A DNA stretch of 64,000 nucleotides from a virus: positions 1-64,000 of the IMG/VR virus record IMGVR_UViG_3300032893_000029, one strand, 5' to 3'. The notes under the pieces were generated by a model, which had not been told where the DNA came from, did not search any database, and saw only the letters and a list, made by a program, of their open reading frames with translations. Made by a program: the position numbers and the translations under genes. Positions 8,056 to 62,233 of this stretch are shown here, one piece after another. Within the stretch, counting starts at the first letter, position 1, and each line of letters begins with the position of its first letter.

Positions 8056-9174
8056 CTATACCCCCGCGAAAACGGCGAGATAGCCGCTGTTGTCCGGATC
8101 GGAAAAATCGAGCGACGGCTGTTCCACGATCGGCGGAATCGGGCCGGCGCCTGACGGGAAGAACTCCGGAATGCATTCCTCGATCAGCGCCCGCGCGATC
8201 TGGTTCATCCGCTGCTGGAAGTAATTGATCTCAAAAACGATCTCTTTCTTCTGCACGATGACGCCGAGCTCGGTCTGCACCCGATGCAGGTCCTTGATCA
8301 CGGGCATGTTCATGATGCCGAAGTCGTCGGGATTGTTCTCTGCCCATTGCTGGACGAAGTCGGCGAAATCCAGCGCGGCGTCGTTGTTCAGGCCGAACAG
8401 CGTGATGCGGACGGTTTCCTTGCAGATCTGCCAGCGGTTCATCTGGCTGTCGAAACTCGGGGCCGAAGCCAGGGCTTCCGTCGTTTCCGGCGAGATGAAG
8501 ACCGAACCCCACGGCGGCGTCAGATTGGCCGGAACCAGAAACGCCGGATAAAGCGGGATGTCGTTGCCGAAGGCCTCATAGAACGCCGGCGTGTAATAAT
8601 TCATCTTCAGCCACAACGGCAGGCTGTTCGACACGATCTGCTTGGTCTGAAGATCGCTGAGCTCGTCGACAAGCTGGATCGCGGTGTCGGGATAGACGGC
8701 GTCGCCTTCGTAGTGCCACAGCCCGGCGGCGCGATAGAGCAGGCCGTGCGAACCGAAGGCGAAAGTCAGATCCTTGTAGCGGCCGATCCAAAGCTGGTTC
8801 GGCCCGACCTGGTTGAGCTTTTCGATCGGGCCTTCCGACGTGAAGACCATCCGATTGACGGAGAAGTTCTGGTCTTCCCTCTGGTCGCGCCGCGAGGCGT
8901 AGTGCAGCGAGCCGCGTTGCGTGAAGGTCGACGCCGGCGCCGCCAGGGTCTGCGGCGTGTTCAACGGGACTTCGTTGAAGCCCATCACGTTGAACAAAGT
9001 GCTCTTGCTGACCAGATCGGACTTGACCCAGAAGACATAGCCGTCCAGCGGCAGTGCGACGCGGACGTAAAGCGTGAAGCAGACTTCTTGCTGTTCCGAG
9101 ATCGCCCGCTCGCCCTGCTTCAGGGCGGCGTCCAGCGGCGATGCTACATCGGCGCCTTCGTCAAGCGACGGCAT
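8056..9174 (-). CDS. Conserved virion protein of unknown function
   Basis: 372 aa, starting 14 bases inside the preceding gene. No recognised domain. It has many aromatic residues (for example LWLKMNYYTPAFYEAFG) and ends with a Pro-rich region. Its length, soluble character, and position between the head-closure genes and the sheath suggest a neck or tail-terminator-linked structural component. Nothing in the sequence points to an enzyme. Confidence 0.6.
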   Translation of the reverse strand: MPSLDEGADVASPLDAALKQGERAISEQQEVCFTLYVRVALPLDGYVFWVKSDLVSKSTLFNVMGFNEVPLNTPQTLAAPASTFTQRGSLHYASRRDQREDQNFSVNRMVFTSEGPIEKLNQVGPNQLWIGRYKDLTFAFGSHGLLYRAAGLWHYEGDAVYPDTAIQLVDELSDLQTKQIVSNSLPLWLKMNYYTPAFYEAFGNDIPLYPAFLVPANLTPPWGSVFISPETTEALASAPSFDSQMNRWQICKETVRITLFGLNNDAALDFADFVQQWAENNPDDFGIMNMPVIKDLHRVQTELGVIVQKKEIVFEINYFQQRMNQIARALIEECIPEFFPSGAGPIPPIVEQPSLDFSDPDNSGYLAVFAGV

Positions 9175-9481
9175 TCAGATACGACCAGCCGTAATGCGCG
9201 AGATAGGACGCCTTGAAGGCCATCCTGATGCCGCCGCTCCGCGCCCAGGCCTTTTCGCGTTCGATCCACATCATGCGGATCGCCGCGCCGCCGGCGCCTC
9301 TGAGCATGTGGATCGAGCGGTCCGGTGTTCCCGTCGGGGGGAGACATGCTGCCTCCCCCGCGATCGGTGCCCCACGGCGTTCGGGTTCGACGCCGTAATC
9401 GACATAGCCGCCGCCGGGACGGAACCAGTGCGTCACCAGGCTCTTGCCGGCGCGTTGTGCGGTCGAGACTTCAATGCTCAA
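9161..9481 (-). CDS. Small virion/neck protein
   Basis: 106 aa, overlapping the genes on both sides (11 and 14 bases), as in a head-tail connector cluster. It contains WFRPGGGYVDYG and ends in KASYLAHYGWSYLNAVA. There are no Cys pairs and no membrane segment. The likely role in the head-tail junction rests only on neighbours. Not recognised. Confidence 0.5.
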   Translation of the reverse strand: MSIEVSTAQRAGKSLVTHWFRPGGGYVDYGVEPERRGAPIAGEAACLPPTGTPDRSIHMLRGAGGAAIRMMWIEREKAWARSGGIRMAFKASYLAHYGWSYLNAVA

Positions 9482-60309: not shown

Positions 60310-60761
60310 ACCCGTTCGAAGCCCTTCTTGTCAGCACCGCCGGCGCAATCGCCGGGGCGATCGTTCTCGAGCTCCAATGGCGGCTCGCATTCCAGAAGGG
60401 GCTTAAGGCCGGCAGCACGATTAAGGTCGCATTCGAAAAGCTGCTGCCGGCGCCGCCATCGGAGCTCTATGTCGATGTCATCGATCCGGAGGGCGCCGTG
60501 CTTGGGACGAAGAAGGCCGGCTTCTACATCGATGACGACGGCAATCTCTGCAACGCCGCCGATGTTGAAATCTTCGTCGGCGCCATTCCGTCGGCCCTTT
60601 TCTTCGTCATCCGGGCGGAATCCGCCCGCTGCATCATGCGGGCCACGCCGGCGACGTTTGACAATAAGGACGTGATCGGCAAAAACACCGTTGTCATACG
60701 GCGCGACGAAATATCGCTTCACATCGTTCCGCCGAAGAAGTCGGAAAGCCGAGTGTCATGA
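60306..60761 (+). CDS. Hypothetical protein with N-terminal hydrophobic helix
   Basis: 151 aa, ATGA overlap. ALLVSTAGAIAGAIVLELQW is a probable membrane anchor; the rest is beta-rich (LYVDVIDPEGAVLGTKKAGF). Function unknown. Confidence 0.55.
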   Translation: MNPFEALLVSTAGAIAGAIVLELQWRLAFQKGLKAGSTIKVAFEKLLPAPPSELYVDVIDPEGAVLGTKKAGFYIDDDGNLCNAADVEIFVGAIPSALFFVIRAESARCIMRATPATFDNKDVIGKNTVVIRRDEISLHIVPPKKSESRVS

Positions 60762-60961
60762 ACGCCTACATCGTGGTTTCCAATCTGCTCGAGATCGCCA
60801 GGCAGCGCGAACATCAGGCGCACGCCCGGCGCTTCGAAGCGCAGGAATCGGCAATGGTGGAGGTCGGCGACATCCGCGGCCGCGCCGCTGTGCTCACCAG
60901 GGCATTGACCGGCGGCTACGCCGCGAGTCTTCCGGCGTCGCTGATCCACCGCGCTGCCTAA
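60758..60961 (+). CDS. Small hypothetical protein, last gene of the early operon
   Basis: 67 aa, ATGA overlap. Helical (IVVSNLLEIARQREHQAHAR). It ends 7 bases before a strong hairpin. Function unknown. Confidence 0.5.
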   Translation: MNAYIVVSNLLEIARQREHQAHARRFEAQESAMVEVGDIRGRAAVLTRALTGGYAASLPASLIHRAA

Positions 60962-60992: not shown

Positions 60993-61145
60993 TCTAGAGC
61001 ACCGGCTTTCGCCGTCTGCCTTCACCATAGGATGCCCTACATCAGAACTGCAGGAGCATCAGCTTTCTTCGTCTTTCAGCCACCAGGACCGTTGTCGTGT
61101 TTGTCATGAAAACGACTCCTCTGTTTCGACTCGCACCCTGCCATA

Positions 61146-61179
61146 GAAAAAGGGCCCGGAGCTATGGCGCCCGGGCCCT
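61146..61179 (-). terminator. Terminator of the tmRNA transcript
   Basis: 9-bp stem AGGGCCCGG/CCGGGCCCT with an 11-base loop, followed on the minus strand by TTTTTC. It lies directly after the tmRNA coding piece. Confidence 0.75.
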
Positions 61180-61500
61180 CTCCTTCTGTTGCCAGGGCCC
61201 CTTAAGGGGCCCCCGGAGCTCAGGCCGCTACGCGGTCCGCTCCAGCGAACGTATTGTCGTTCGCATCTATGTTGCCCGCGGGTCTCCTGTGAGGCCTTCC
61301 CGCCCGTCGATCCTGTTTCGTCCCCTTATCGCCCACCGGCCAGACTGGTTACTGGGGCAATTCTGCCGCAAGCGGCGCGACCGTCGGTCCCCCGAGCGGA
61401 CTCGCGATGGGCGTTTCGGTGCCAACCGAAACTGGTGGAGACGCCGGGTACCGCCCCCGGGTCCGGCTCGATCCGTCCTCACGATCACTGATTTGCGAGC
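61180..61500 (-). ncRNA. ssrA: Permuted two-piece tmRNA
   Basis: Read on the minus strand: an acceptor piece ends in the tRNA-like CGTCTCC-A-CCA (CCA at 61435-61433), preceded by a T-arm CCGGG-GGCGGTA-CCCGG. A spacer with a perfect GTTTCGGT/ACCGAAAC hairpin follows, then the coding piece from 61325, GGGGACGAAACAGGATCGAC. GGGGACG pairs with CGTCTCC as a 7-bp acceptor stem whose third pair is G-U, the AlaRS identity element. The tag frame (61264-61220) encodes ANDNTFAGADRVAA, giving AANDNTFAGADRVAA with the charged Ala. A hairpin GGGCCCC-TTAA-GGGGCCC lies after the tag stop. The 5' boundary is approximate. It rescues stalled ribosomes and tags proteins for proteolysis. Confidence 0.9.
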
Positions 61501-61525
61501 GGCGGGACCATAGCGCCGGCGCGGA

Positions 61526-61556
61526 CAAGAAAAAAGCCCCGGCCGGAGCCGGGGCT
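61526..61556 (-). terminator. Terminator of the lysis cassette
   Basis: AGCCCCGGC/GCCGGGGCT with a CGGA loop, followed on the minus strand by TTTTTTCTTG, 58 bases after the last lysis gene. Confidence 0.8.
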
Positions 61557-61613: not shown

Positions 61614-61919
61614 TTATCGATGACCCCGCAGTTCTGTCAATTGCCGTCGCTGTCGGCCGCGGGCGAGATAGGGTCTCAAAAAGAACATGACACCGACGAC
61701 GAGAACGCAGGCGTGCATTCCGAGGATGCACCATCTGGCGCCCCCGATCGCAATCGGAAATTCTGCAAGATGGCTTACAGCCAGCACGAGCGAGCAATAC
61801 AGCCAGATTGCAACCGTCACTCTCATCCATATCGGATGATCGGCATAATCGCGCAAAAACACTGCAACCACGAAGAATGTACCGATCAAAAGAAGGATGG
61901 CGTCGAGACGCAGGAACAT
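61614..61919 (-). CDS. Holin-like membrane protein (3 spans)
   Basis: 101 aa, start shares a base with the previous stop (TAATG). Spans: LDAILLLIGTFFVVAVFL, VTVAIWLYCSLVLAVSHLA, WCILGMHACVLVVGVMFFL; basic C-terminus (RGRQRRQ). Size and topology fit a class I holin, located in a cassette with peptidase and lipase. Could be the partner or antagonist of the protein before it. Confidence 0.6.
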   Translation of the reverse strand: MFLRLDAILLLIGTFFVVAVFLRDYADHPIWMRVTVAIWLYCSLVLAVSHLAEFPIAIGGARWCILGMHACVLVVGVMFFLRPYLARGRQRRQLTELRGHR

Positions 61920-62233
61920 TACTGCTCTCCTTTACTGATGCCTCTTAAACGTTTCAGCACACCGATGGGGTCTTGCCTTATAGCGTTCACGCCGGCGATG
62001 GCGCCGCCGCAAAGACCCATGCCGGTCAGCCCGAAGAAAAATCCGAACGCACCGATCCACTCGTTGTCCCAATGCAACCACTGTACCAGCGGCACCGGCA
62101 GAAGGATCGACAGCGCGGAACCGCAGAGCACGATCGACAAACCGCTAAGCCAGGTGATCCTTCCCTGAAACAGGAAGGCAATCGCGACGCCGAACATCCC
62201 CCATTCGGCACCGCCGACAGACATCTTGTCCAT
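61919..62233 (-). CDS. Holin-like membrane protein
   Basis: 104 aa. Two to three hydrophobic segments (GMFGVAIAFLFQG; SGLSIVLCGSALSILLPV; AFGFFFGLTGMGLCGGAIAG) and a basic end. It lies between the peptidase and the second membrane protein. A holin/antiholin pair is the simplest reading; no experimental-type signature distinguishes them. Confidence 0.6.
   Translation of the reverse strand: MDKMSVGGAEWGMFGVAIAFLFQGRITWLSGLSIVLCGSALSILLPVPLVQWLHWDNEWIGAFGFFFGLTGMGLCGGAIAGVNAIRQDPIGVLKRLRGISKGEQ

Follow-up and report, generated by a model that had tools for sequence, protein, structure and literature searches.

The precursor of the two-piece tmRNA is cut into two pieces that are paired with each other, and the product is charged with alanine and rescues stalled ribosomes together with SmpB. 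Phage tmRNAs were already listed in 2014 (PMC4131195), and a survey in 2022 reported 402 phages, 133 distinct tmRNA structures and 53 two-piece forms, 50 of which were from marine or aquatic samples (PMC9004378). As of 2025, 79 phage sequences are included in the tmRNA database (PMC11915505). The two-piece phage tmRNA is therefore a known kind, and several of its carriers infect relatives of the probable host of the phage analyzed here.

In the present study, we analyzed a window of 64,000 nucleotides from an IMG/VR record of 73,635 bases that is labelled linear. A sequence-only reading had described a complete permuted ssrA on the minus strand, with an acceptor piece ending in CCA, a spacer hairpin and a tagged coding piece, and had named ARAGORN and the RF01849 model beforehand as the check. 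Both matched. ARAGORN called one permuted tmRNA with the tag ANDNTFAGADRVAA (Table 1), and two Rfam covariance models gave scores well above their gathering thresholds: RF01849 alpha_tmRNA (65.5 bits, gathering 50, E 1.1e-15, 61470-61301 (-)) and RF04321 tmRNA_permuted (64.9 bits, gathering 47, E 3.1e-10, full model 1-213, 61481-61220 (-)). Both pieces are complete and in the permuted order with the CCA end, and the tag frame has an ANDN-like start and ends with AA and a stop codon. The helix around the end of the tag frame is presumably helix 5 of tmRNA. A further hairpin was read from the sequence between this helix and the terminator-like hairpin, whose stem and T run agree with the earlier proposal that the gene has its own terminator; our simple terminator scan omits it because only loops of 8 or less are covered. 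No second tmRNA was found in the whole record. From these features, it is highly probable that the phage carries a complete permuted ssrA as an accessory gene, which was derived from the tmRNA of an alphaproteobacterial host and works with the SmpB and AlaRS of the host.

Table 1. Features of the permuted ssrA locus and its flanks (positions in the window)
Feature	Position	Strand	Basis
Last called gene of the convergent early region	60758..60961	+	Gene calling
Permuted ssrA (two-piece tmRNA) gene	61129..61525	-	Extent per ARAGORN
Terminator-like hairpin GGGCCCGG...CCGGGCCC + TTTTT, end of tmRNA transcript	61147..61178	-	Sequence, fold
Coding piece: 5' acceptor strand GGGGACG (start, 61325), D-loop-like part, tag frame, 3' hairpins	61179..61325	-	Rfam and sequence; 3' boundary approximate
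Helix around tag-frame end and stop codon, GGAGC...GCTCC	61215..61243	-	Fold
Tag reading frame GCG...TGA (ANDNTFAGADRVAA)	61220..61264	-	ARAGORN, sequence
Intervening segment, 107 bases	61326..61432	-	Sequence; removal inferred from known two-piece tmRNAs
Spacer hairpin GTTTCGG-TTGGCA-CCGAAAC, 7 bp, opening the intervening segment	61432-61413	-	Sequence, fold
Acceptor piece: T arm (61465-61442), acceptor-stem 3' strand CGTCTCC, ACCA end	61433..61481	-	Rfam and sequence; 5' boundary approximate
Acceptor 3' strand CGTCTCC+ACCA	61443-61433	-	Read from sequence
Terminator-like site upstream of tmRNA, end of lysis genes	61535..61556	-	Terminator scan
Holin-like gene, nearest called phage gene upstream	61919..62233	-	PHROG 2359 lysis/holin, E 6.1e-5

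All seven pairs of the acceptor stem form (G-C, G-C, G-U, G-C, A-U, C-G, G-C), and the third is G3-U70, as had been read from the letters. The set of viral tmRNAs provides a natural covariation test of this stem. The sample consisted of 37 distinct permuted genes, namely the window gene and 36 further genes with an intact stem among the IMG/VR matches listed, and the stem was fully complementary in all 37. Most stem positions are set by the search motif and the GGGG anchor, leaving pair 5-68 as the free test; this pair was G-C in 17 genes, T-A in 11, C-G in six and A-T in three, with no mismatches; in the window gene it is A-U.

An exact repeat of 127 bases is common to both ends of the record (1-127 of the window and 73509-73635 of the record), and a gene that is interrupted at one end resumes at the other end, matching its arrangement in the relatives. 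The record thus very probably represents a complete phage genome that is circular and about 73,508 bases long. The large terminase, portal, head, sheath and tape-measure genes are in 1-26 kb of the window on the minus strand, and the baseplate genes are at the other end of the record. The region of 27-61 kb is mainly on the plus strand with recombination and ParB-like genes, and includes a minus-strand block (38-45 kb) with a replication gene. The tmRNA gene lies between two convergent regions, the plus-strand early region and the minus-strand late and lysis region, as had been proposed, and is flanked on both sides by phage genes in a record with head, tail, replication and lysis genes. Because ssrA is frequently used as an integration site (PMC11915505), a host ssrA bordering an integrated prophage, or a mixed contig, had to be considered; the sequence-only reading had named a host ssrA at an integration site as its main alternative. 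However, phage genes are present on either side, and the terminal overlap closes the circle. Furthermore, the gene has its two pieces in full, whereas only one part is expected at an attP located in ssrA, and neither a tyrosine integrase nor a serine recombinase was found in the record. No nearby integrase, partial ssrA or host DNA on one side was observed. We consider this alternative extremely improbable and, on the basis of the circular map and the complete gene, rejected it.

The terminator-like site upstream separates the tmRNA from the lysis genes, and the promoter scan found no sigma-70-like promoter for the tmRNA; the late expression suggested by the sequence-only reading was therefore not supported. 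The segment 61594-61520 (-), which overlaps the upstream site, gave a full-length but weak hit to the alphaproteobacterial sRNA suhB/mmgR (25.2 bits; gathering 41), and the terminator probably accounts for most of it. On the other side, a short ATG frame of about 21 codons (61107-61042 (-)) with a GAGGAG RBS-like site lies just after the tmRNA terminator, and is followed by another terminator-like site (60995-60966).

The large terminase (TerL) was closest, at about 40% identity, to those of Rhizobium and Erythrobacter phages, which suggests an alphaproteobacterial host. The major head protein is common to seven IMG/VR records (56-76% identity), and a 262-residue gene near the tmRNA is common to 14. 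All 21 related records, which are mostly fragments, lack a permuted tmRNA; the standard-form tmRNA model gave on them a single match below the cut-off, at a tRNA-Ala gene. One relative (G017; 78,844 bases), probably complete and circular because it has a 97-base terminal repeat, has no tmRNA. The viral stretches that carry tmRNAs each share at most one weak protein match with the window phage. Since the relatives lack the gene and its other carriers are unrelated, the tmRNA is best seen, from these comparisons, as an accessory gene that would have been gained separately by unrelated phages. Our results add a tmRNA to a group of contractile-tailed phages in which no other examined member has one, which points to sporadic gain. 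The sporadic occurrence and the lack of a visible promoter could also suggest a passively carried, decaying and non-functional copy. This is very unlikely, because all of the tested features are intact, including the compensated A-U at 5-68. As for tRNA genes, none was found in the window; a cluster of 21 tRNA genes is present at 5087-10470 of contig 3300021180_000018, a record that shares the 262-residue gene.

In tmRNA tagging, the first A of (A)ANDNTFAGADRVAA stands for the alanine that the tRNA part carries; the AANDN... of the sequence-only reading therefore agrees with the tag from ARAGORN. The window tag ends with VAA (DRVAA), whereas LAA is the ending in most of the viral tags examined. 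The pattern ANDNTFAGA had no match in a genome collection of 84,980 species, from which records very near the window may be left out. A search of the genomes with a narrow acceptor pattern, which was over-specific, also found nothing. The tag pattern matched eight stretches in viral contigs; ARAGORN found a tmRNA in none of the eight, and RF04321 gave one weak match below the cut-off, elsewhere in one record. The first tag codons are predicted to lie in a 7-bp hairpin (61264-61245 (-)), in which the resume codon is paired.

These observations bear on the possibility that the RNA acts against trans-translation of the host by occupying SmpB, AlaRS or the ribosome, as a tRNA-like-only form in phage DS6A inhibits tmRNA (PMC4131195), or that the tag was changed for a phage-specific purpose. 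The absence of the tag pattern from the genome collection, the stable predicted hairpin at the resume codon and the VAA ending all speak for this reading. However, the full tag frame with its stop codon, the stop-codon helix and the intact acceptor stem argue for a working tmRNA, and viral permuted tmRNA tags vary widely in any case. We regard both possibilities as unlikely. The hairpin was also seen in several other viral tmRNAs; it was therefore rejected as a unique feature, and predicted pairing of the resume codon recurs among viral permuted tmRNAs. It is similarly improbable that the DRVAA end diverts tagged products away from a host protease or toward a different one, or that this tmRNA outcompetes that of the host, so that trans-translation would be redirected and not merely supplemented.

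For the preferred reading, a working accessory tmRNA, we counted in favor the calls by ARAGORN and two Rfam models, the intact stem and the circular phage genome; the lack of a sigma-70-like promoter, the lack of a relative with a tmRNA and the predicted hairpin at the resume codon were counted against it. If the gene is expressed, the tRNA-processing enzymes of the host would cut the transcript into the acceptor and coding pieces, which would remain paired via the acceptor stem, and the intervening segment is expected, by analogy, to be removed. Host AlaRS would recognize G3-U70 and charge the acceptor with alanine. SmpB was not found in the record, and thus the phage would rely on the SmpB of the host, to which the charged tmRNA would bind to rescue stalled ribosomes. 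Addition of the tag AANDNTFAGADRVAA would direct the stalled peptide to host proteases. The phage would probably benefit because ribosomes are kept free while mRNA breaks down during infection. This copy with its own tag may be a usable test case for the benefit of tmRNAs to phages if a host is known.

A permuted alphaproteobacterial form had been thought unusual in a phage, which our results did not support, as such genes are common in viral contigs. The acceptor-end motif occurs in at least 119 IMG/VR stretches, and ARAGORN read permuted tmRNAs in many of those listed. The exact coding-piece pattern had no match in viral contigs, nor did a whole-gene DNA search of phages and plasmids; the acceptor core alone as the query found phage and plasmid tmRNAs. 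ARAGORN identified permuted tmRNAs in two phage isolates, RcRudolph of Rhodobacter (OP009285) and DSS3P8 of Roseobacter (KT870145), with no tmRNA annotated at those places in the retrieved annotation tables, and 53 two-piece forms had been counted in phages (PMC9004378). Plasmids or chromids of Paracoccus, Methylobacterium, Bosea and Sinorhizobium also carry permuted tmRNAs. The RcRudolph gene (2437-2851 of stretch L170) overlaps RCRUDOLPH_61, which is annotated as a hypothetical protein but may not be a true gene. Viral stretch L080 has two permuted tmRNA genes (8159-8493 and 9090-9481) with differing tags, ANDNFASEDYALAA and ANENFALAA. Unusually long tags of 29 residues were seen in L043, L060, L066 and L143, and in L052 and L054 (ANDNALSNVTFVDFSAPVTAVNEDFALAA; AKKSTTFASILPVKVERVSLVQEALAASA). 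For tags of the ANDNxFA type, a small hairpin (TGCAAA...TTTGCA or GCGAACG...CGTTCGC) contains the resume codon, also in L080, L071, L119 and others.

The window gene shares with the alphaproteobacterial two-piece tmRNA (RF01849/RF04321) the order of acceptor piece, spacer and coding piece, the T arm consensus, the GGGG...CUCCACCA acceptor stem, and the ANDN start and AA end of the tag. It differs in its location in a phage genome and in a tag without a match in the genome collection searched. Methylophilales phage Melnitz also has a complete permuted ssrA and no detected integrase (PMC9004378). However, the Melnitz tmRNA adjoins an early promoter and has a linked glutamine riboswitch, whereas no riboswitch reached the threshold here, and the window tmRNA is placed where the early and late regions meet. 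RcRudolph and DSS3P8 are similar to the window phage as alphaproteobacterial phages with a permuted tmRNA, although their tags (ANDNVRMDAQALAA and ANINNAPMEMAIAA, respectively) are different, and the RcRudolph tmRNA adjoins a HIRAN-domain gene, whereas that of the window is near lysis genes.
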